Position numbers and translations under genes: made by a program
Origin: Verrucomicrobiota bacterium
GTDB lineage: Bacteria; Verrucomicrobiota; Verrucomicrobiia; JADLBR01
DNA: 64,000 bases
Assembly (NCBI GenBank): GCA_029560585.1
Contig: JAKQKQ010000051.1
Coordinates: 1-64,000, forward strand
Reading direction: 5' to 3'
Shown here: in pieces, positions 278 to 49,665 of the stretch
How the letters are laid out: the number at the start of each line of letters is the position of its first letter
Position numbering within the stretch: position 1 is the stretch's first letter
The notes under the pieces: model-generated
Database searches by the model: none
Seen by the model: only the letters and a program-made list of their open reading frames with translations
What the model was told of the DNA's origin: nothing

Positions 278-2149
278 ATGAGCAACTTGAGCCTGCATTG
301 CATCGTATTCCTCGCCATGGCGGTCGCCGCGCGCGCGCAGGCCCCGAACCTCGTCCCCGCGCCCGCGGCCGAGCCACCCGCCCAGACGGCGCCGGCACCG
401 TCCGGGCAAAAACCGCCCGAGGATCCCACCCAGGGCAAATCCAAATTCCTCGGCAAGGACCTGCCGGGGCTCGACATCGGCAGCGAGGTCGTCAGCTGGG
501 ACGGCAAACTTTGGAAGATAACCGACAATCGCATCTTCCGGTCGCGCTTCGAAAAGTTCCTCAATGCCGCCGAACAGACCACCGAAGAGGAGAAGGAATA
601 CCAGGCCCTGCTCAAACGCATCATGGACCTCCTGGCCCCCGAAAACGTGGACGCCACCAAGGTCAACGATGCCTGGAGCCTCCTGCCCAAGGCCTCGAAA
701 TACCGCATCGACGCCAATCTCTGCGACTCCCTCGCCAATGCCGTCTACACCGTCTGGCTCTCAAAACGCGAAATCAGCCGCGTCCAGCTCGCACAGAAGG
801 TCCTCACCGAAGAAAAACGTTCGCTGGAGTGGAATGCCCGCATGCGCGCCGAGAACAACCGCCTGGGCGATACCCCGCCCAAGAACCCCGCACTCGCACA
901 GCAGTGGGCCAAAGAGCAGGACCTCAAACGCGATCTCGGTCTCCAGCCCTACCTCACCCGGCTCGTCGAGGTGAACGCGATGATGCAGGCCAACAAACTC
1001 AAGACCCAGGCCTCCGAGCTGCAGGCCAAGGTCGAATTCCAGGCGCTGGTCATGCAGTTCTTCCTGCAGCGCCGATTCCAGCACGTCGTCATCGCCAGCC
1101 GCTTCTATCGGTCGGTCTTCAACGACGGCGACACCAAGCTCTCTGTCGGCAAGGAGACCGAGAAACTGCTCACCGATGCATCGGGCCTCCCGCCCACTCT
1201 CGGGGTCCTGGATTCCCTCGCCAGCGAGGCGATGCGCGATGTCTCCGAGGGCGTCGAGGCCTTCCGATTCCTCCTGGGCAAGAACGAACTCGCCAGCGCC
1301 ACCGAGCGCCTCTCCGAGACCTTCGTCCTCGGCGAGTACATGCCCGAGGTCCGCTCCCTCAAGCGCGACGAGAAACGGGTCGCCCTGAAGTTCGCCCAGC
1401 TCAGCAACCAGCTGCTCTCCGCCCTCGAGGTCAAGGACTACGAGCGCGCGGAACAGGTCTGCAAGGAACTCCAAACCATCGCGGCCGATTTCGACACCTC
1501 CAAGCCCATGGCCGCCATCGAGACCGCGCGCACCGTCAGCGCCATGCACCTCGCCAAGGCCCGCACCGCCGCCGTCTCCGGCGACCGCGCGACCCTCGAG
1601 GAACAGCTCCGCCTCGCGACCGAAATCTGGCCCCGCAACCCCGAACTCGCCAAGGTGTCCGCCGCGATCTTCAGCCAGACCGATGTCCAGCAGCAGGCCC
1701 TCGTCGATCTCGAGCGCCTCATCCAGCAAAAGAATTTTCGCAGGATCTACGACGACAAGGTCCGCTTCATCGCCGCCACCGCCCTCTACCCCGACAAGCA
1801 GGAGACACTCCGCAAGGTCCTCGACGACATGCAGATCATCGAGGGCGCCGTCATCCGTGCCCAGGAGATCGCCCGGCGCAACGATCACGCCGGCGCGTGG
1901 GAGAGCATCGAGAAGGTCTTCAAGGACTTCCCCGACGACAACAAGCTCAACCAGCTCCGCGCCGACTTCACCACGCAGGCCGCCGACTTTGTCCGCAGCC
2001 TCAGGACCGCCCAGGACCTCGAGAAGAAAGATCAGACCGGGTCTAGCCTCGCCTGGTATCTCAAGGCCCAGAGCCTCTACCCGCCCAGCGAGTACGCCCG
2101 CGACGGCATCGAGCGCCTCGTCCAAAAGATCATCCCCTCGGATGGATGA
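278..2149 (+). CDS. Secreted helical-repeat protein of unknown function
   Basis: The product is 623 residues. The start at 278 was chosen because it opens a good signal peptide (MSNLSLHCIVFLAMAVAARAQA, cleavage near residue 22), while upstream in-frame codons give arginine-rich nonsense; an ATG at 254 is the alternative. A proline- and alanine-rich linker (about 23-55) precedes a short conserved-looking block with SWDGKLWKITDNRIFRSRFEKF. The rest is almost entirely alpha-helical, with regularly spaced Leu/Ala and charged residues resembling TPR-type solenoids and coiled coil. There are no catalytic motifs, cysteine pairs or C-terminal anchor, so a periplasmic scaffold or assembly role is possible but unproven. 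From memory, similar proteins occur as conserved hypotheticals in Verrucomicrobiota. Codons favour C in the third position. Confidence 0.8.
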   Translation: MSNLSLHCIVFLAMAVAARAQAPNLVPAPAAEPPAQTAPAPSGQKPPEDPTQGKSKFLGKDLPGLDIGSEVVSWDGKLWKITDNRIFRSRFEKFLNAAEQTTEEEKEYQALLKRIMDLLAPENVDATKVNDAWSLLPKASKYRIDANLCDSLANAVYTVWLSKREISRVQLAQKVLTEEKRSLEWNARMRAENNRLGDTPPKNPALAQQWAKEQDLKRDLGLQPYLTRLVEVNAMMQANKLKTQASELQAKVEFQALVMQFFLQRRFQHVVIASRFYRSVFNDGDTKLSVGKETEKLLTDASGLPPTLGVLDSLASEAMRDVSEGVEAFRFLLGKNELASATERLSETFVLGEYMPEVRSLKRDEKRVALKFAQLSNQLLSALEVKDYERAEQVCKELQTIAADFDTSKPMAAIETARTVSAMHLAKARTAAVSGDRATLEEQLRLATEIWPRNPELAKVSAAIFSQTDVQQQALVDLERLIQQKNFRRIYDDKVRFIAATALYPDKQETLRKVLDDMQIIEGAVIRAQEIARRNDHAGAWESIEKVFKDFPDDNKLNQLRADFTTQAADFVRSLRTAQDLEKKDQTGSSLAWYLKAQSLYPPSEYARDGIERLVQKIIPSDG

Positions 2150-2174
2150 GACCCGACGGCAGAATCCGTGACCG
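2148..2174 (+). repeat. Short post-stop repeat, copy 1 (family H)
   Basis: GAGACCCGACGGCAGAATC followed by CGTGACCG overlaps the stop codon of the upstream gene. A related stretch lies just after the apt stop at 2791-2816. The two align over most of 26 bases with a one-base gap. Too short to classify further. Confidence 0.4.
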
Positions 2175-2250
2175 GAAGGATCGGCGTCCATGCGCCGCGC
2201 ACCGCAATCACATTTGACTTCCCACATCCGTTGGCAGAACCTCGCACTCC

Positions 2251-2787
2251 GTGAGCGACCCCGACGCCATCCGAATACTCCGTGCGGCACTGCGCACCGT
2301 GCCAGATTTCCCAAAACCCGGCATCCAATTCATCGACATCACCCCGATCCTGCGAGACCCAAGACTCTTTGGCCTCGCCATTGATCTTTTCTGCAAACGC
2401 TACGAGAATCTTGGCCTCGAAGCCGTTGTCGCGGTCGACGCGCGCGGCTTCATCTTCGGTGGCGCCATCGCACGCCAGCTCGGCATTGGATTCATCCCGG
2501 TTCGCAAGAAAGGAAAACTCCCCTATCGGACCCGAGAGCAATCCTACGACCTCGAATACGGCAGCGCCACGATCGCCGTGCACGAGGACGCCCTTCGCCC
2601 GGGCCAACGTGCCGCCCTAGTCGACGATGTCCTCGCCACGGGTGGCACCGCCGCCGCGGCCGCCGAACTGATCCGCGCCCTCGGTGCCGACCTCGTCGAG
2701 GCGACATTCTTCGTCGAGCTCGGTTTCCTCAACGGCCGCGCCAAACTCGCCGGCCTCCCCATGGCGTCCATCATCCGGATCGATTGA
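2251..2787 (+). CDS. apt: Adenine phosphoribosyltransferase
   Basis: Converts adenine and PRPP to AMP in purine salvage; cytoplasmic. The 178 residues match the family length. The N-terminus RTVPDFPKPGIQFIDITPIL is the family signature. VVAVDARGFIFGGAIARQLG forms the base-binding and flavin-like loop, and AALVDDVLATGGTAAAAAEL (about residues 124-143) is the PRPP-binding motif with the acidic pair DD. The start is a GTG at 2251; no in-frame ATG exists near the conserved N-terminus. It stands alone between a secreted protein and the convergent mscL. Confidence 0.96.
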   Translation: MSDPDAIRILRAALRTVPDFPKPGIQFIDITPILRDPRLFGLAIDLFCKRYENLGLEAVVAVDARGFIFGGAIARQLGIGFIPVRKKGKLPYRTREQSYDLEYGSATIAVHEDALRPGQRAALVDDVLATGGTAAAAAELIRALGADLVEATFFVELGFLNGRAKLAGLPMASIIRID

Positions 2788-2790
2788 CAC

Positions 2791-2816
2791 GAGACCCGTG
2801 GCCGAATCTGTGAACG
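2791..2816 (+). repeat. Short post-stop repeat, copy 2 (family H)
   Basis: GAGACCCGTGGCCGAATC followed by TGTGAACG begins three bases after the apt stop and resembles 2148-2174, including the position immediately behind a stop codon. Confidence 0.4.
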
Positions 2817-2864
2817 CCAGGCATCGCCCCCGAGGCGACGCGGCCAGGGGCATGATCGGCAAGC

Positions 2865-3284
2865 CTATCGCTTCAACAGGTCGCGGATCTCGCTCAGCAA
2901 CTTCACCTCGGCCGGGGGTTCCGCGGGCGCCGCCGGCGCAGCCTCCTCCTTGCGCTTGAGCTGATTGATCGCCTTGATGATCATGAACAGGCAGAATGCC
3001 ACGATCACGAAATCGATCACCGAGTTGATGAATAGCCCGTAGGGGATCACGGCCGCGCCCGCCGCCTTCGCCGCATCCAGAGATGGATAGCTCTTCCCGT
3101 CCAGGGCCACGAAGAGATTGGCGAAGCTGATCTTCCCCATCACCAGGCCGATCACGGGCATCAGGATCTCATTCACCATCGATGTCACGATCTTGCCAAA
3201 CGCCCCGCCGATGATGATGCCCACGGCCAGGTCGATGACGTTGCCCTTCACCGCGAATTCCTTGAACTCCTGCAGCATTTTCAT
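2865..3284 (-). CDS. mscL: Large-conductance mechanosensitive channel
   Basis: Inner-membrane pore that opens under membrane tension during osmotic downshock. The 139-residue product fits the usual 130-150. [20 protein letters not shown] is the canonical amphipathic N-terminus and start of TM1, with the pore-lining [12 protein letters not shown] next. A periplasmic loop (about 47-75) precedes TM2 ([20 protein letters not shown]) and a charged C-terminal helix ending EIRDLLKR. The start at 3284 was preferred over longer in-frame options because the protein family begins exactly there. Convergent with apt. Confidence 0.97.
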
Positions 3285-16180: not shown

Positions 16181-16442
16181 CGGCGCGCCGGATTATTCAT
16201 GGTGAAACTTCTGGGGGCGGGGCCGTTATGGACTGCGGTGGCAGAGCGAAGCGGCGGCACCGCTTTTGCCCCCGGCGGAGCCGAAGCCGATGGTCCCGGC
16301 TCGCGCTTCGCGCGCAGCCAAAGCGATGGCGCCGTCCGGCGGTTGCCGGACTCTGCCACCGCAGTCCAAACCCCTCCGGGCCCGGATCCTGGGTCGGGGC
16401 ACGAGCCGCGCCCGCGAACAGCGCCCGAAGTTTCTGGCTAGC
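16181..16442 (+). repeat. Family C composite repeat, copy 1
   Basis: Bounded by GTGAAACTTCTGG and the near-inverted CCGAAGTTTCTGG. The interior has long inverted arms starting GGACTGCGGTGGCAGAG and ending CTCTGCCACCGCAGTCC, with an extra AAGCGG-rich stretch between. A shorter copy of the same unit lies inverted at 48769-48945. Confidence 0.85.
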
Positions 16443-43711: not shown

Positions 43712-43825
43712 ATTAGATTTGATGAAGGTGGCGTCGGACGCGGTGGCGCGGATTTCGGTGTGCGGGGGCGTGCGCGTGGCGCGTGCCCTCGGGCATCGAG
43801 CGCGCCCGATTTTTCGGCCGTTGTC

Positions 43826-43839
43826 TTGATCGAGATCAA
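43826..43839. promoter_or_regulatory. Perfect FNR/DNR-type binding site
   Basis: TTGATCGAGATCAA matches the FNR-family consensus TTGATnnnnATCAA exactly. It is centred about 44 bases before the start of the tetraheme cytochrome gene. FNR and DNR proteins switch on anaerobic or nitrogen-oxide respiration genes, which fits the operon. A class II arrangement would put the transcript start almost at the ATG. Confidence 0.65.
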
Positions 43840-43876
43840 GGCGGCCTTGGCGGTCCGGCGCCATGGTGAGGTTGCG

Positions 43877-44533
43877 ATGCGGAATGATCGCCGCACAACG
43901 GACGCCACTGGTCGATCGGGTCTTGTATTCCTGGCCCTGATCGCATCGGTGCTGCCCCTGCCCGGCGGGGAATCCGCCGCCACGGCGACCCCCGCGCTGC
44001 CCGTCGTGACGAAACCCACTCCGACCCAGCCCGCGGTCGGCCTGCCGACGGACAGGCACCTCGACAAGGAGCCGCCCAGGGCGACCCATGGGCTCGACCT
44101 CGTCAAGATGGGTTGGACGTACAACTGCATGGATTGCCACCGCCTGCTCGAGGCCAAATGGCACCGCGACGCACCGATGGTGGAGCACCAGAACATCAGG
44201 CTGATCCATGGCGAAAACCGTTTCTGCCTGAATTGCCATCACCCGACCAATCGCAACGCCTTTGTCGATTACGACGGATCGGAGATCGCCGAGTCGGATG
44301 TCGTCCGCCTGTGCGCGAAGTGCCATGGGACGACTTTTCGCGACTGGCAGGCCGGGGTGCACGGGCGCCGCAATGGTTACTGGGACACGGCCAGCGGATC
44401 CCGTTCCCAGCTGCGCTGCATCCAGTGCCATGACCCCCATGCGCCAAAGTTCCCCGTCATGAAACCGCTGGCTCCGCCCACCTACCCGGCCCGTGCGGCG
44501 CATCCGCCAACCGAGGGGAGGGCACAGCATTGA
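43877..44533 (+). CDS. Secreted tetraheme cytochrome c
   Basis: The product is 218 residues. The signal or anchor helix is SGLVFLALIASVLPLPGGES (about 14-33). A proline-rich linker precedes four CxxCH heme sites: CMDCH (84-88), CLNCH (117-121), CAKCH (146-150) and CIQCH (181-185). HGRRNGYWD and QCHDPHAPKFP are distinctive. Probably passes electrons between the membrane NrfD-type module and the octaheme cytochrome. The start at 43877 follows a GGTGAGG site. Its TGA overlaps the next start (TTGA). Confidence 0.9.
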   Translation: MRNDRRTTDATGRSGLVFLALIASVLPLPGGESAATATPALPVVTKPTPTQPAVGLPTDRHLDKEPPRATHGLDLVKMGWTYNCMDCHRLLEAKWHRDAPMVEHQNIRLIHGENRFCLNCHHPTNRNAFVDYDGSEIAESDVVRLCAKCHGTTFRDWQAGVHGRRNGYWDTASGSRSQLRCIQCHDPHAPKFPVMKPLAPPTYPARAAHPPTEGRAQH

Positions 44534-45504
44534 ACCCCGTGGAGCCAGCCGACGGAGACAGCCGCACGGTCGAGCAGGCCTGCAGCCCGTTGACGCGCAG
44601 GACCTTTCTCAAGGGGTCCGCCGCATCGGCCGTTGGCCTCGCGGCGATGGCCGCCGCCCTCAGACCACTGCTGGCACTCGAGAAAGAGAACCTGACCCTG
44701 GACGCCCTCCTCCAGCGGCACTACCGGGAACTCACCCCCGACCAGCTGGGGCGCATCCTCGATAGGCTCGAGGGCGAGTGCGAGCGAACCTACGGCGTCC
44801 ATCCCGAGATCCGCGATATCCGACCCCGCGATGGGACGGAATTCGCCTATGCGCTCAATCTCGGGCGCTGCATCGGCTGCAGGAAGTGCGCCCACGCCTG
44901 CCTCCGTGAGAACAATCAGTCCCGCGACTCGGATGAGGATATCAACATGTCCTACATCCGCGTCCTGGAACTGGAGAAGGGCGGCATCGATCTCGAGACG
45001 TCCGACCATTACTACGATCCCGGGACGGTGCCCCGCCCCGGAAAGTACTACATGCCGGTCCAGTGCCAGCAGTGCCGCGAGGCGCCCTGCACGAAGGTGT
45101 GTCCCGTCCGCGCCACATGGAAGGAGCCCGACGGGGTCGTCGTCGTGGACTACAACTGGTGCATCGGCTGCCGCTACTGCATGGCGGCATGCCCCTACGA
45201 CGCGCGGCGATTCAATTACTCCAAGCCCAAATTGGCGGCGAAGCACATCAACCCGGATCAGGGATACCTGAGCAATCGCATCCGGCCCAAGGGCGTCGTG
45301 GAGAAATGCACCTTCTGCCTGCACCGCACGCGCGAGGGCAAGTACCCCGCATGCCTCGAGGTGTGCCCCACCGGCGCCCGCGTCTTCGGGAACATCCGGG
45401 ACCCCGACAGCGAGATCAATTACATCCTCCAGAACAAGCGCGTCTACGTCCTCAAGGAGGACGTCGGGACCCGGCCCCGGTTCTACTACTTCTTCGACAA
45501 ATGA
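44530..45504 (+). CDS. Tat-exported four-cluster ferredoxin-like electron-transfer subunit
   Basis: The product is 324 residues. A twin-arginine signal (LTRRTFLKGSAASAVGLAAM, about 21-40) exports the folded protein. Cysteine groups for four 4Fe-4S clusters follow: CIGCRKCAHAC, CQQCREAPCTKVCP, CIGCRYCMAACP and CTFCLHR with CLEVCP. The layout is that of NrfC, HybA and DsrO, partners of NrfD-type quinol subunits. The start is TTG at 44530 overlapping the previous stop, or GTG at 44539. ATGA overlap with the next gene. Confidence 0.92.
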   Translation: MNPVEPADGDSRTVEQACSPLTRRTFLKGSAASAVGLAAMAAALRPLLALEKENLTLDALLQRHYRELTPDQLGRILDRLEGECERTYGVHPEIRDIRPRDGTEFAYALNLGRCIGCRKCAHACLRENNQSRDSDEDINMSYIRVLELEKGGIDLETSDHYYDPGTVPRPGKYYMPVQCQQCREAPCTKVCPVRATWKEPDGVVVVDYNWCIGCRYCMAACPYDARRFNYSKPKLAAKHINPDQGYLSNRIRPKGVVEKCTFCLHRTREGKYPACLEVCPTGARVFGNIRDPDSEINYILQNKRVYVLKEDVGTRPRFYYFFDK

Positions 45505-46739
45505 GGCACTATCTCACATTCCTCTGGCGCATCGCCCGCCTCTCCTTTCAGGGGGGATGGAGGTTCTACGCGTGGATGACGCTGCTGACCGCGATCGCGC
45601 TCGTCGGCCTCAACGCGTACGCCACGCAGCTCGTCGATGGCCTGTCCACGACCGGCATGACCAACCAGGTGAGCTGGGGCGCGTACATCGCCAACTTCAC
45701 TTTCCTGGTCGGCGTCGCCGCCGCGGCCGTCATGCTCGTGATACCGGCCTACGTATACAAGAAGGGATTCATGCACGAGGTCGTCATCTTTGGCGAGCTG
45801 ATGGCCATCGCCGTCATCATCATGTGCCTGCTCTTCGTGACCGTGGATCTCGGGCATCCGGAGCGCTTCCACCACATGATCCCGCCATTTGGCATGTTCA
45901 ATTGGCCGGGGTCGATCCTCTCCTGGGACGTCATTGTCCTGAACGGCTACCTCTTGCTCAACATGCACATCTGCGGCTACCTCCTTTACAAGAAGTACCT
46001 GGGGCGCCCGCCGACGAAGGCTTTCTACATACCTTTCGTTTTCATCGCCATCGCCTGGGCCATCAGCATCCACACCGTCACCGCATTCCTCTACGTCGGC
46101 CTCGCGGGACGATCTTACTGGCACAATCCCATCGTCGCGCCCCGTTTTCTGGCATCCGCTTTCGCGGCCGGCCCGGCGCTGCTGATCCTGACGTTCCAGG
46201 TCATCCGGAAGTTCACGCGCTATTGGATCGGTGACGAGCCGATCTTCATGCTGCGGATGATCATGACGGTGGCGATGCTCATCAACGTTTTCCTGCTCGG
46301 CTGCGAGGTCTTCACGGAGTTCTATGCGCCCACGGCGCACTCCGCGGCCGCCCGGTATCTCTATTTCGGGCTCCACGGCCACGGCGGACTCATGCCGTGG
46401 ATATGGACGGCCGTCGCGCTGGACTTCGTGGGCCTCGGCCTGCTGATCACGCCATTGAGCCGCAGGATCTCCTGGCTCAACGTCGCTTGCGCCACCTGCT
46501 TTCTCGGCATCTGGATCGAGAAGGGCATGGGCCTCATCATCCCGGGATTCGTCCCCTCGCCGCTCGGGCAGGTGGTGGAATACCTCCCGTCGCCCAACGA
46601 GTCGCTCGTCTGCCTCGGGATCTGGGCATTCGGCGCCCTGCTGTACTCTTGGATGCTCCACGTCGCGATCCCGATCATGCGGGGCCAGCTCCGGGCGAAT
46701 CCCGGCGATACCGCTCCCGGGCCGCGAGCGGCGATTTGA
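45501..46739 (+). CDS. NrfD/PsrC-family quinone-interacting membrane subunit
   Basis: The product is 412 residues with about ten transmembrane helices, as in the longer NrfD/DsrP/HybB group. Landmarks are SWGAYIANFTFLVGVAAAAV, LGHPERFHHMIPPFGMFNWP, SILSWDVIVLNGYLLLNMHI and GHGGLMPWIWTAVALDFVGL. It should exchange electrons between the quinone pool and the ferredoxin-like subunit on the outer face. No heme ligand motif is evident. Starts on the last codon of the preceding gene (ATGA at 45501). Confidence 0.93.
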   Translation: MRHYLTFLWRIARLSFQGGWRFYAWMTLLTAIALVGLNAYATQLVDGLSTTGMTNQVSWGAYIANFTFLVGVAAAAVMLVIPAYVYKKGFMHEVVIFGELMAIAVIIMCLLFVTVDLGHPERFHHMIPPFGMFNWPGSILSWDVIVLNGYLLLNMHICGYLLYKKYLGRPPTKAFYIPFVFIAIAWAISIHTVTAFLYVGLAGRSYWHNPIVAPRFLASAFAAGPALLILTFQVIRKFTRYWIGDEPIFMLRMIMTVAMLINVFLLGCEVFTEFYAPTAHSAAARYLYFGLHGHGGLMPWIWTAVALDFVGLGLLITPLSRRISWLNVACATCFLGIWIEKGMGLIIPGFVPSPLGQVVEYLPSPNESLVCLGIWAFGALLYSWMLHVAIPIMRGQLRANPGDTAPGPRAAI

Positions 46740-46779
46740 AGACCAACCCGAACGACAACCCGATACGACAGAGAACCCC

Positions 46780-48225
46780 ATGAAAAACGCCAAACGCATC
46801 GCACCCTGGTTCGCCCTCGTCGCCGCGTGGGCACAGCCCACCGCCGAGGCCGGATTCACGATGAAGGAACTCTCGAAGGAAAGCAGGGACTGCGTCGCCT
46901 GCCACAAGGTCGAGAGCGCCTCCATCTACGCCCAGTGGGGATCGAGCAAACATTTCCGCGGCAACATCGGCTGCTTCGAGTGCCACATGGCGAACGAGAA
47001 GGACCCCGACGCGGTCCGCCATCACGACCAGTGGATATCGGTCATCGTGTCGCCCAAGGACTGCGCGCGGTGCCACGAGCAAGAGGTGGCGGAGTTCAAT
47101 GGCTCGCACCACGCCAAGGGCGCCCGGATCCTCGGCTCGCTCGACAACGTCCTCGCCGAGGTCGTCGAGGGCAACCGGGGATTCAAGACTGCGTCATTTC
47201 CTCACGGCGTCTCCGCGGCCGCCGTCAACGGCTGTTGGCAGTGCCATGGCACCGAGGTCAAGATCCTCGCCGACGGCAAACTCGATCCCGCGACCTGGCC
47301 CAACACCGGCATCGGCCGCCTGAACCCGGACGGGAGCGAGGGCTCTTGCACCGCCTGCCACGGGCGCCACGAGTTCTCGGCCGCGCAGGCGCGCACCCCG
47401 GCCACCTGTGGCAAGTGCCACATGGGGCCGGATCACCCGCAGATCGAGATCTTCAACGAGTCCAAACACGGCATCGCCTATTACGCCAACGTCGAGCACA
47501 TGAGACTCGACAACGAGAAGTGGATCGTCGGCGAGGATTACACCGCGGCCCCGACCTGCGCGACCTGCCACATGAGCGCGACGAAAACCAAACCCGTCAC
47601 CCACGATGTCGGGATGCGGATCTCCTGGAACAACCGCCCCGAGATCTCTATCCGCCCCGAGCTTTCCGATGCCAAGATGGGCCTGCCCGGCAAGGACATC
47701 CCCTGGACGACGCGCCGGGCCAACATGGTCGATGTCTGCACCAGTTGCCATAACAAGAATTTCGTGGACGCCTTTTACGCGCAATACGACGGGCTCATCG
47801 AACTGTACCACGAGAAATTTGCGAAGCCCGGCATGGCGCTCTACGAGGCCGCGGGGCCGCTGCTGCACAAGCCAAAGTTCAGCAACAAGATCGACTTCAC
47901 GTGGTTCGAGATCTGGCATCACGAGGGCCGCCGCGCGCGCCACGGCGTGTCCATGATGGGCCCCGACTACACGCACTGGCACGGGACCTACGAGGTGGCC
48001 CGGAACTTCTATTCGGAGTACATCCCGGAACTCCGGGAACTCGCCGAACACCACATGCGCGATCAGGATCCCGCGAAGAAGACCGCCGCGGAGAACCTGT
48101 CAAAGCTGCTGGATGAGACTCTCGGGAGCGACAACCACAAGTGGTTTCTGAACAGGATGGATCCCGCGGAGCAGGCCCTGCGGGAGAAGAGCCGGCAGGA
48201 ATTCATGCGGCGGTACGGCAAGTAG
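46780..48225 (+). CDS. Octaheme cytochrome c of the hydroxylamine oxidoreductase family
   Basis: The product is 481 residues with a signal peptide ending near AEA-GF. There are eight CxxCH sites at 38, 65, 95, 152, 190, 210, 260 and 320. THDVGMRISWNNRP and HGVSMMGPDYTHWHGTYEV are typical of the HAO family. Oxidative HAO has a tyrosine cross-linked to the active heme, missing in reductive Hao (nitrite or hydroxylamine reduction). Tyr397 and Tyr404 are candidates that only an alignment can judge. Genetic linkage to an NrfD-type quinol module favours a reductive, quinol-fed role. No CxxCK of NrfA is present. Confidence 0.88.
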   Translation: MKNAKRIAPWFALVAAWAQPTAEAGFTMKELSKESRDCVACHKVESASIYAQWGSSKHFRGNIGCFECHMANEKDPDAVRHHDQWISVIVSPKDCARCHEQEVAEFNGSHHAKGARILGSLDNVLAEVVEGNRGFKTASFPHGVSAAAVNGCWQCHGTEVKILADGKLDPATWPNTGIGRLNPDGSEGSCTACHGRHEFSAAQARTPATCGKCHMGPDHPQIEIFNESKHGIAYYANVEHMRLDNEKWIVGEDYTAAPTCATCHMSATKTKPVTHDVGMRISWNNRPEISIRPELSDAKMGLPGKDIPWTTRRANMVDVCTSCHNKNFVDAFYAQYDGLIELYHEKFAKPGMALYEAAGPLLHKPKFSNKIDFTWFEIWHHEGRRARHGVSMMGPDYTHWHGTYEVARNFYSEYIPELRELAEHHMRDQDPAKKTAAENLSKLLDETLGSDNHKWFLNRMDPAEQALREKSRQEFMRRYGK

Positions 48226-48243
48226 GGGGCAACGATCGGCACG

Positions 48244-48771
48244 ATGCCCGACCACCCGAAAGCGCCAGCCAGCGTTGACCCCGCCAACGGGATTGGCAGG
48301 GGCCAACCGTGCCGCTGGGGCACGGAGGATTTCCTCTCCATGGGCGAAGAGGGGCTCCGGTCACACCTCCTGGATCGCGCGCTCTGGGCGCACGGGAAAT
48401 ACCCGGATCTGGACTGCGCGCGAATCGGTGAGTTCCTCATCGACCCGGGGTGCCTTCGCTATCCCGCGCGGCTCGTCTTCGATTTTGGCGACATGGCGCC
48501 GCACCAGTTTGTCCAACCGGGGCCCACGCCCGAAGACCCCGCGTCCGGCGAGATGGAGATTTTTGTTCACCCCGCCCTCCGCCTGCACGAGGGTTTCATT
48601 CCGGCCGCCGTCGCCTACGCCGTGCCGCAGATCAACTACGGTGATGCGGCGACCGACGAGCACTGCCTGCTCTACGGTGCCACCCTCTTGGGGGTGACGG
48701 CCGATGAATATTACGCGCGACTTTGCACCGTGGCGGATGCCGTCGGCGCTGCGGCGAGATACCGCACCTGA
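48244..48771 (+). CDS. Unknown protein at the end of the octaheme cytochrome operon
   Basis: The product is 175 residues, starting 18 bases after the cytochrome stop. No signal peptide or membrane helix, so cytoplasmic. The sequence is mixed alpha/beta, with PCRWGTEDFLSMGEEGLRSH, FLIDPGCLRYPARLVFDFG and FVHPALRLHEGFIPAAVAYA as distinctive stretches, and no metal, nucleotide or heme motif I recognise. The position suggests an assembly or regulatory partner for the cytochrome system. Confidence 0.7.
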   Translation: MPDHPKAPASVDPANGIGRGQPCRWGTEDFLSMGEEGLRSHLLDRALWAHGKYPDLDCARIGEFLIDPGCLRYPARLVFDFGDMAPHQFVQPGPTPEDPASGEMEIFVHPALRLHEGFIPAAVAYAVPQINYGDAATDEHCLLYGATLLGVTADEYYARLCTVADAVGAAARYRT

Positions 48772-48945
48772 CCGGAAACTTCACGCTGTTCGGGGGCGCG
48801 GCTCATGCCCCGCCCCAGGATCCGGGCTTGGAGGGCTTTGGACTGCGGTGGCAGAGTCCGGCGGTTGCCGGACTCTGCCACCGCAGTGCAGAACGGCCCT
48901 GCCCCCAGAAGTTTCATCATGACTAATCCGGCGCGTGGACGATTC
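48769..48945 (-). repeat. Family C composite repeat, copy 2
   Basis: Inverted relative to 16181-16442. Edges are CCGGAAACTTCACG, at the stop of the upstream gene, and CCAGAAGTTTCATC. The centre at 48842-48887 is a perfect 21-base-pair hairpin with loop GGTT, arms ACTGCGGTGGCAGAG and on to GGC. The AAGCGG-rich middle of copy 1 is absent. Confidence 0.85.
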
Positions 48946-49182: not shown

Positions 49183-49665
49183 TCACTCCCAGCCCGAGAT
49201 ATTCAGCAGGGCGGTCTGCGTTTCGACGAGACGCTCGTTGACGTCGCGCAGGCGGCGGCTGAGCTGCGTGGCGATCCCGACCACGAGGTTGCCTCCCGCG
49301 ACGGGGCTGGTCTCGAGGAAGGACTCGAGATTCTCGCGGCTGATGCGCCAGACCTGGGTGAACTCGCGGGCGATGACCGTCGCGCTCGCGCTGGACGGGT
49401 CGAAGATGTTGACTTCGCCGAACGAGGCCCCCGGCTGGATGCGACCGAGCAAAAACTCCCGGTTGTGGGCAACTCGGCTTGCGTGCAGCAGACCGCCGAT
49501 CACGAGATAGAGGCAATCCTGGGGATCGCCCTGCTTGATGACCTCTTGGCCCGATTGGAACGACAGGAACTCACCATACGAACTGAGCAGTAGCCGATCA
49601 TCTTCCGACAGGTCGGCCACTATGCCGATGGCAGGCAATTCGGGTGTCTCTAGAGAGGTTGTCAT
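49183..49665 (-). CDS. Cyclic-nucleotide-binding domain protein
   Basis: The product is 160 residues: a single CRP-type cNMP-binding domain (about 18-130) with FLSFQSGQEVIKQGDPQDCL, LLGRIQPGASFGEVNIFDPS and SASATVIAREFTQVWRISRE. The phosphate-binding cassette is recognisable but its arginine position holds SAS. The C-terminal helix (RRLRDVNERLVETQTALLN) is not a helix-turn-helix, so this is not a CRP/FNR transcription factor by itself. It may be a sensor that binds another protein. It faces the octaheme operon convergently. Confidence 0.85.
   Translation of the reverse strand: MTTSLETPELPAIGIVADLSEDDRLLLSSYGEFLSFQSGQEVIKQGDPQDCLYLVIGGLLHASRVAHNREFLLGRIQPGASFGEVNIFDPSSASATVIAREFTQVWRISRENLESFLETSPVAGGNLVVGIATQLSRRLRDVNERLVETQTALLNISGWE

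Follow-up and report, generated by a model that had tools for sequence, protein, structure and literature searches.

In NrfABCD of the E. coli type, a quinol subunit (NrfD), a 4x[4Fe-4S] protein (NrfC) and a multiheme shuttle (NrfB) serve a terminal multiheme nitrite reductase, the pentaheme NrfA. In the MccACD/SirA sulfite reductase, an octaheme c-type reductase from a different family, with an atypical heme site, is coupled to FeS and NrfD-type subunits, and the DsrJOP portion of DsrMKJOP combines a triheme cytochrome c, a Tat-exported FeS protein and DsrP, in that order. The octaheme cytochrome IhOCC of Ignicoccus hospitalis (PDB 4qo5), which is archaeal and membrane-associated, reportedly reduces nitrite and hydroxylamine and lacks the Tyr crosslink; it is not known to have an NrfD module. 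The epsilonproteobacterial eHao enzymes (HaoCA, reverse-HURM pathway) are octaheme proteins that work with Hcp and are fed by the NapC-type tetraheme protein HaoC, and their signature is a Trp at the heme-crosslinking position preceded eight residues earlier by a Met (PMC8940962). Finally, a four-gene locus of Thermosulfurimonas dismutans (TDIS_0606-0609) and Dissulfuribacter (DBT_2326-2329), encoding a HaoA-like multiheme cytochrome together with NrfD, FeS and cytochrome c proteins beside nap, was proposed in 2017 to function in nitrite reduction in organisms without NrfA (PMC5276818).

The operon analysed here clusters the same four protein types as the Thermosulfurimonas locus, a likeness of composition drawn from the text of that paper; however, that locus adjoins nap and no counterpart of gene 5 is mentioned for it, whereas the present operon has no nap. 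It lies in a window of 64,000 nucleotides (the whole stretch of DNA analysed; contig JAKQKQ010000051.1 of assembly GCA_029560585.1, from a Verrucomicrobiota bacterium), and comprises the following features:

43825..43840, no strand assigned: predicted FNR/DNR-type operator CTTGATCGAGATCAAG, a perfect 16-bp palindrome 36 bp 5' of the first start codon
43877..44533, + strand: gene 1, predicted exported or membrane-anchored tetraheme c-type cytochrome, electron relay (4 CXXCH; Pfam Cytochrome_C7)
44530..45504, + strand: gene 2, predicted ferredoxin-like 4x[4Fe-4S] subunit with Tat export, most similar to DsrO (NCBIfam)
45501..46739, + strand: gene 3, predicted NrfD-superfamily quinol-interacting membrane protein, DsrP-type (Pfam NrfD, NCBIfam DsrP)
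46780..48225, + strand: gene 4, HAO-superfamily octaheme cytochrome c with the reductive Trp400/Met392 signature, predicted to reduce nitrite/hydroxylamine (8 CXXCH, Pfam, PDB profile, AF2)
48244..48771, + strand: gene 5, conserved 15-20 kDa protein of no known family or fold, candidate assembly or regulatory factor (homolog alignment)
48842..48887, no strand assigned: perfect 21-bp inverted repeat with a 4-nt loop (RNA fold -54.3 kcal/mol, z -9.7)

The composition and coordinates given in the initial annotation (a 4-heme cytochrome, a Tat-exported 4x[4Fe-4S] subunit, an NrfD/DsrP-like membrane protein, an 8-heme HAO-family protein and an unknown protein, overlapping or closely spaced between 43877 and 48771) were confirmed, with all five ORFs on the + strand. 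Genes 1 and 2 and genes 2 and 3 overlap by 4 bp, and gaps of 40 bp and 18 bp follow genes 3 and 4, respectively. The gene order does recur elsewhere, as that annotation had proposed to check: it is the same in another species of this genus (hereafter the sister genome; protein identity 58-92%), and 13 further sampled loci carry all five genes in this order, so that the arrangement is far beyond chance. Most of the module is present in several phyla. Many gammaproteobacterial and Nitrospirota octaheme orthologs, however, have no DsrOP-like module within 6 kb, and the octaheme enzyme is thus not strictly tied to it; NapC-type partners accompany the orthologs in loci L104-L108.

Gene 4 carries exactly eight CXXCH motifs, scores 86.2 bits against Pfam Multi-haem_cyto (PF13447; cutoff 21.9) and matches 4qo5 both in a PDB profile search (E 1.3e-70) and, as an AF2 model, by fold (E 6e-19, the residues aligned by fold being about 26% identical); the model also matches 6h5l and HAO. 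Eight heme sites together with similarity in sequence and modelled fold identify its predicted product as an HAO-superfamily octaheme cytochrome, the closest solved relative of which, by both measures, is IhOCC. The two proteins share a PN.G.GR.NPDGS..G.C loop between hemes 4 and 5. An NrfA identity is rejected for gene 4 (PF02335, Cytochrom_C552, 20.9 bits against a cutoff of 24.1), and matches to MccA/OTR/ONR-type octaheme proteins are weak or absent in PDB sequence-profile and AF2 fold searches. Residues D218/H219 of gene 4 align with D267/H268 of NeHAO. An alignment of the active site bears on the direction of catalysis: the position of the heme-crosslinking Tyr is occupied by Trp400, with Met392 eight residues earlier, as in eHao. 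Both residues are invariant in 48 sequences. The initial annotation had asked whether Tyr397 or Tyr404 aligns with the crosslinking residue, and the active-site alignment rules out both. On the strength of this signature, gene 4 is assigned to the reductive type, and an oxidative HAO/HDH identity is disfavoured.

The membrane module encoded by genes 1-3 resembles DsrJOP in its order of cytochrome c, Tat-exported FeS protein and DsrP, but its cytochrome is tetraheme rather than triheme and a terminal octaheme reductase follows. Gene 3 scores 129.3 bits against Pfam NrfD and 412.8 bits against NCBIfam DsrP (cutoff 350), DsrP and QrcD being its only NCBIfam matches; its alignment has 17 members. 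Gene 2, which begins with TTG and encodes a twin-arginine motif (RRTFLK) and four 4-Cys groups, narrowly misses the DsrO cutoff (187.6 bits vs 200) and falls far below that of NrfC (110.6 vs 377.6). By these scores genes 2 and 3 are not NrfC/NrfD proper, and the predicted module is DsrOP-like rather than NrfCD-like. Genuine DsrMKJOP is ruled out, no dsrM or dsrK ORF being present between 41000 and 52000. Gene 1 exceeds the Pfam Cytochrome_C7 cutoff at 30.1 bits and is kept across 20 aligned homologs; its NapC/NirT score (16.5 bits, cutoff 24.1) sets it apart from a HaoC-type partner. Thus, while gene 4 shares its active-site signature with eHao, it would be fed by a DsrOP-like module and a non-NapC tetraheme cytochrome, and while the arrangement follows the logic of NrfABCD, an HAO-family octaheme protein takes the place of NrfA. 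The proposal that a quinol module, and neither c554/cM552 nor a NapC-type protein, feeds a reductive HAO-family enzyme gains support from the strongly conserved order and from Trp400.

What such an enzyme reduces cannot be read from sequence, because the octaheme family is catalytically promiscuous. In Verrucomicrobiota relatives, napA (NCBIfam NapA 930.9 bits, cutoff 904) adjoins the octaheme genes, and in locus L189 the order is napA-napB-g1-g2-g3-OCC-g5. The host and sister genomes lack napA, the NapA search having returned distant matches only, so that for the host the link to nitrate is indirect. A search with NarG likewise gave distant matches only, one of which led to a full-length NxrA/NxrB homolog and overturned the idea of a host without any nitrate or nitrite enzyme. 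The host genome also encodes Hcp (hydroxylamine reductase; 643.7 bits, cutoff 367), and in a search for NrfA nothing rose above background, the best other match being a 46-position fragment at 24.3 bits.

The predicted operator upstream of gene 1 fits the DNR consensus CTTGATnnnnATCAAG (PMC1274295) and is the single exact occurrence of TTGATNNNNATCAA in the window. The 7.06-Mb host genome holds 13 TTGAYNNNNRTCAA sites, one of them just upstream of the octaheme operon; other palindromes lie upstream of hcp, upstream of an operon of DUF6448 and nitric oxide reductase, and between feoA and hemH. In the sister genome, the predicted operators at the octaheme operon and hcp are kept. FNR/DNR boxes were found 5' of 11 of 56 relatives' genes, against about 1.2 expected (p about 3e-8), although a recognisable operator accompanies only about a fifth of relatives. 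The TTGAT-N4-ATCAA predicted operator common to the octaheme operon and nitrogen-oxide genes is what a DNR/FNR-type regulon would display. The only Crp/Fnr-type regulator above cutoff in the host has a single Cys and hence would not be a [4Fe-4S] FNR, but more DNR-like; the adjacent single-domain cNMP-binding protein (49183-49665) has no HTH and was rejected as the regulator. Together, the nap linkage and the operator common to hcp and nitric oxide reductase point to nitrogen oxides.

We consider it probable, from these genomic features, that the operon encodes a periplasmic enzyme which draws on quinol to reduce nitrite/hydroxylamine, whether for ammonification or for detoxification, and which is induced by NO or anoxia. 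We infer the electron path, substrate, product, regulator identity and energy coupling of this system. The DsrP/NrfD-type protein would oxidise (mena)quinol, and the DsrO-like subunit, by way of its four [4Fe-4S] clusters, and the tetraheme cytochrome would relay the electrons to the octaheme protein, whose heme 4, lacking a Tyr crosslink, would for that reason work reductively. Nitrite might be converted to ammonium directly, or by way of hydroxylamine with the last step completed by cytoplasmic Hcp. At low oxygen and in the presence of NO or nitrite, a DNR/FNR-type regulator would activate the operon, hcp and nitric oxide reductase together. The host would have to draw nitrite from outside or from its NXR-type enzyme, and relatives with napA/napB in the operon could take nitrate to ammonium from one transcription unit.

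Several other functions were weighed. Quinol electrons might instead be spent on clearing NO, hydroxylamine or nitrite from the periplasm under nitrosative stress, without growth support. The operator shared with hcp and the quinol nitric oxide reductase, the lack of Nap in the host and its DNR-like single-Cys regulator would all suit such a role, which we regard as possible but somewhat doubtful: the module is built into the nap operons of relatives, implying respiratory use of nitrate or nitrite, and the host NXR-type enzyme could supply nitrite. Production of NO from nitrite, with the quinol nitric oxide reductase completing a truncated denitrification, appears unlikely. It has a precedent in the anammox HAOr, an enzyme that has no Tyr crosslink and forms NO from nitrite (PMC12758564), and nitric oxide reductase does share the predicted operator. 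However, the closest structural relative of gene 4 is IhOCC rather than HAOr-type proteins, co-regulation with Hcp suits hydroxylamine or ammonium chemistry equally well, and Scalindua HAO-type paralogs lie far from gene 4 in a tree that was built from loci other than the named HaoA of Campylobacter/Nautilia. The class of a record labelled Epsilonproteobacteria (G058) was among those sampled, but it appears to differ from Campylobacteria proper and did not serve as an eHao reference.

The initial annotation had allowed electrons to flow from the quinone pool to a reductase or in reverse; the reductive direction is favoured. Oxidation of hydroxylamine (or NO) with electrons entering the quinone pool through a reversed module would accord with the HAO-superfamily membership of gene 4 and with the fact that NrfD-type modules of other complexes can work in both directions (PMC8076601). 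Yet it is very improbable, because Trp holds the crosslink position in gene 4 and every close relative aligned, whereas HOX/HDH-type paralogs in the same alignment have Tyr; moreover, c554/cM552 and amo are absent nearby and the predicted operator is of an anaerobic/NO type. Reduction of sulfite, tetrathionate or polysulfide, as by MccACD or as part of DsrMKJOP, is likewise very improbable: despite the DsrO/DsrP-like genes 2-3, the MccACD precedent for joining octaheme, FeS and NrfD proteins and the alternative of tetrathionate or polysulfide offered for a similar locus (PMC5276818), gene 4 has no C-x15-CH heme site, MccA is absent from its PDB sequence matches, neither MccA nor OTR is among its structural ones, the operon lacks dsrMK, and the genome associates it with nap, hcp and nitric oxide reductase rather than with dsr genes.

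The system is not wholly new; it most likely represents a broadly distributed alternative, described so far only in part, to the Nrf nitrite reductase of textbooks. A claim of novelty for the pairing as such finds no support, a locus of like composition having been described in Thermosulfurimonas (PMC5276818) and octaheme/NrfD-type complexes existing in MccACD; nor is the system unexpected in a polysaccharide degrader, given that octaheme "Onr" (Onr-like) proteins have been reported in polysaccharide-degrading Phycisphaerae (PMC11266412). Poriferisphaera corsica, too, reportedly encodes the octaheme protein. The DsrOP-type coupling does add a terminal enzyme missing from a published catalogue of NrfD-containing complexes, the text of which contains neither 'octaheme' nor 'hydroxylamine' (PMC8076601). 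Next to NrfABCD and NrfHA, the operon may, more tentatively, exemplify a third widespread complex for quinol:nitrite ammonification, in which a DsrJOP-derived, possibly ion-translocating module is dedicated to a Trp-type octaheme reductase and induced by NO with hcp. In this reading gene 5 would serve solely as an assembly factor and have a new fold, and the same octaheme enzyme would have changed partners during evolution, taking up NapC-type, 9-heme/cytochrome-b and DsrOP-type donors. Conversion of nitrite to ammonium decides whether an ecosystem retains nitrogen, and nrfA is the marker usually used to score it. Groups that have the operon and no nrfA, Verrucomicrobiota and Planctomycetota among them, would be overlooked in this way, and they could also be miscalled nitrifiers, because annotation labels the octaheme protein 'hydroxylamine oxidoreductase'. 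The conserved operon, the reductive active-site signature and the predicted NO-type operator together offer a concrete, testable marker.

Gene 5 has no family match in Pfam, PDB sequence or PDB fold searches and no evident export signal, and its AF2 model has a pLDDT of 89.7. All 20 homologs aligned come from octaheme (OCC) loci, and the protein is a candidate for an assembly or regulatory role. The perfect 21-bp inverted repeat lies 70 bp 3' of gene 5; an Rfam search of the window gave no match, and the repeat is possibly a terminator or REP-like element and a putative member of the operon. A related copy lies at 16328-16357.

All five genes of the operon at 43877-48771, as proposed in the initial annotation, were confirmed as real:

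43877-44533, plus strand: gene 1, tetraheme cytochrome with a hydrophobic anchor at its N-terminus
44530-45504, plus strand: gene 2, FeS protein with a twin-arginine motif and four 4-Cys groups
45501-46739, plus strand: gene 3, membrane protein of the NrfD superfamily
46780-48225, plus strand: gene 4, octaheme cytochrome (OCC) with a signal sequence and eight CXXCH motifs
48244-48771, plus strand: gene 5, without a family match in family-profile searches

The gene 1/2 and gene 2/3 junctions each overlap by 4 bp, as is typical of genes predicted to be translationally coupled, and a perfect palindrome, CTTGATCGAGATCAAG, lies immediately 5' of gene 1. Electrons would pass from quinol through the products of genes 3, 2 and 1 to that of gene 4, whose acceptor would be nitrite or hydroxylamine, with ammonium, hydroxylamine or NO as candidate products and either respiration or detoxification as the possible purpose. 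Rival readings overlap in probability with this best explanation, because respiration and detoxification draw on the same enzyme chemistry.

The proposed NrfD-type identity of the module holds at the level of the superfamily, but its membrane and FeS subunits are not true NrfD and NrfC: with 412.8 bits, gene 3 passes the NCBIfam cutoff for DsrP (350). Gene 2 is nearest to DsrO (187.6 vs a cutoff of 200) and scores far lower against NrfC. The module shares its order of cytochrome, FeS protein and membrane protein with DsrJ-O-P; DsrMK was not found among the ORFs of the region around the operon. Functional analogues are NrfABCD and MccACD, in which a multiheme reductase likewise works on an NrfD-type module.

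By sequence, the gene 4 protein belongs to the HAO superfamily. Its closest solved structure is Ignicoccus IhOCC, both by profile (E 1.3e-70) and for its AlphaFold model (E 6e-19, TM 0.67/0.62), and the two share a long heme 4-5 loop (PNTGIGRLNPDGSEGSC). Asp218/His219 align to Asp267/His268 of Nitrosomonas HAO. When the protein was aligned with HOX- and HDH-type paralogs of one Scalindua genome and the 4n4j chain, the position held by Tyr in the oxidative enzymes was occupied by Trp400, and not by Tyr397 or Tyr404, the residues first suggested for the heme crosslink; Tyr397 varies in relatives (W, F, I, H) and Tyr404 lies beyond the aligned position. Trp400 and Met392, eight residues N-terminal to it, are invariant (n=48 sequences), the same signature as that reported for epsilonproteobacterial Hao (PMC8940962, after Haase). 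Proteins lacking the Tyr have been treated as reductive (PMC12758564).

The five-gene order, for which the initial annotation proposed a search, recurs elsewhere. The sister species retains genes 1-5 in order (72, 84, 92, 75 and 58% identity, respectively). Conservation was scored over 81 loci, the 80 best of named genomes and that of the sister, a sample whose counts do not measure prevalence; an NrfD-type gene lies within reach in 37 (one of them, L073, a match of only 23%). All five genes occur in the window's order in 14 loci, in three more napA and a NapB-like tetraheme gene interrupt the run ahead of gene 5, four have the order 4-1-2-3, and nine of the module-bearing loci lack gene 5. 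Module-bearing loci come from Verrucomicrobiota, Planctomycetota including Scalindua, Myxococcota/Bdellovibrionota, Cloacimonadota and others. Within 6 kb of the sampled Gammaproteobacteria and Nitrospirota orthologs the module was not found; in its place, the octaheme gene is followed by a NapC-type tetraheme gene in Vibrionaceae and relatives, and by a nine-heme/cytochrome-b gene in methanotrophs. At three methanotroph or gammaproteobacterial loci (L099, L100, L101), the nine-heme protein encoded 3' of the OCC ortholog includes a fused membrane domain of the cytochrome-b561 type and would be a third type of donor to the OCC enzyme. On a 66-sequence tree the gene 4 protein groups with Verrucomicrobiota and loci with the same module label cluster together (8 label changes vs 16 when shuffled). 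Close octaheme orthologs occurred in only a handful of genomes in an even sample of 388 from the host's phylum.

The genomic context points to nitrogen oxides. In close relatives napA lies immediately 3' (NCBIfam NapA 930.9 bits, cutoff 904); 18 of the 81 loci have it no more than 6 kb away, and L189 carries napA-napB-gene1-2-3-OCC-gene5 in one run. Searches of the host and sister genomes found neither napA nor a real NrfA; both encode Hcp (hydroxylamine reductase; 643.7 bits, cutoff 367). A weak NarG match led to an NXR-type locus in the host (contig C200, locus L209:1919-8587, minus strand):

1919-3205, minus strand: NxrB-like, 592 bits
3457-6996, minus strand: NxrA-like, Tat-exported, full-length match to Kuenenia NxrA (7b04), 1675 bits
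6929-8587, minus strand: heme c/heme b subunit, partner of the NxrA/NxrB homologs

The sister genome has a similar NarG-family match (contig C517). Judged by these homologies, the enzyme could supply nitrite from nitrate, and a periplasmic NXR of the anammox/Nitrospira type is notable in an apparent verrucomicrobial heterotroph.

An operator links the operon to other genes of this chemistry. TTGAYNNNNRTCAA occurs 13 times in the 7.06-Mb host genome (control pattern, 5), three occurrences being copies of a contig-end repeat. Its sites include:

upstream of the five-gene operon
63 bp upstream of hcp
46 bp upstream of the DUF6448 and nitric oxide reductase operon (PF22085, COX1 domains)
between feoA and hemH

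Sites at both hcp and norB would arise by chance with a probability of about 1e-7 to 1e-8, which rises to a few per million once post hoc choice of the gene pair is allowed for. The sister genome keeps the OCC operon and hcp sites, and a near-perfect box occurs in 11/56 upstream regions of relatives (about 1.2 expected). Only one host Crp/Fnr-family protein exceeds the Pfam HTH cutoff; it has a single Cys and is thus DNR-like rather than a [4Fe-4S] FNR, and we infer that it binds the TTGAYNNNNRTCAA sites. The published DNR motif is CTTGATnnnnATCAAG, and hcp, nor and nir genes are targets of DNR, HcpR and NsrR regulators (PMC1274295). The DUF6448 gene under its FNR/DNR-type box is directly 5' of the nitric oxide reductase gene (L178:5090-8001, contig C302), and at L024 a second homolog adjoins a box of this type in the vicinity of an orphan octaheme gene; a possible role for DUF6448 is as an accessory protein of NO reductase. 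FNR/DNR-type boxes also lie close 5' of the orphan octaheme orthologs at L022, L024 and L025 (families f4 and f6, same class), which are about 45% identical and lack the NrfD module.

In Thermosulfurimonas and Dissulfuribacter, the protein types of genes 1-4 were described from a nap-adjacent locus, with nitrite reduction suggested and sulfur compounds as an alternative (PMC5276818); nap-Hao-Hcp ammonification was proposed for Deferribacter (PMC6896113), and octaheme Onr-like proteins of Phycisphaerae may replace NirK/NirS (PMC11266412). To this the present analysis adds that the module is of the DsrOP type, that the five-gene set is conserved across phyla, which residues make up the octaheme active-site signature, that napA can lie within the operon, that the OCC operon, hcp and norB have an operator in common, and that gene 5 encodes a conserved protein lacking any known family or fold. 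The gene 5 family (20 homologs) yields a confident AF2 model (pLDDT 89.7) with no match in Pfam, PDB sequence or PDB fold searches, making it a candidate new fold.

Adjoining the operon, 49183-49665 (minus strand) encodes a stand-alone cyclic-nucleotide-binding domain protein without a DNA-binding domain. The operon is followed at 48842-48887 by a perfect inverted repeat (21 bp, 4-nt loop; RNA fold -54 kcal/mol, z -9.7). A related copy 32 kb off, at 16328-16357, suggests a REP-like dispersed element.
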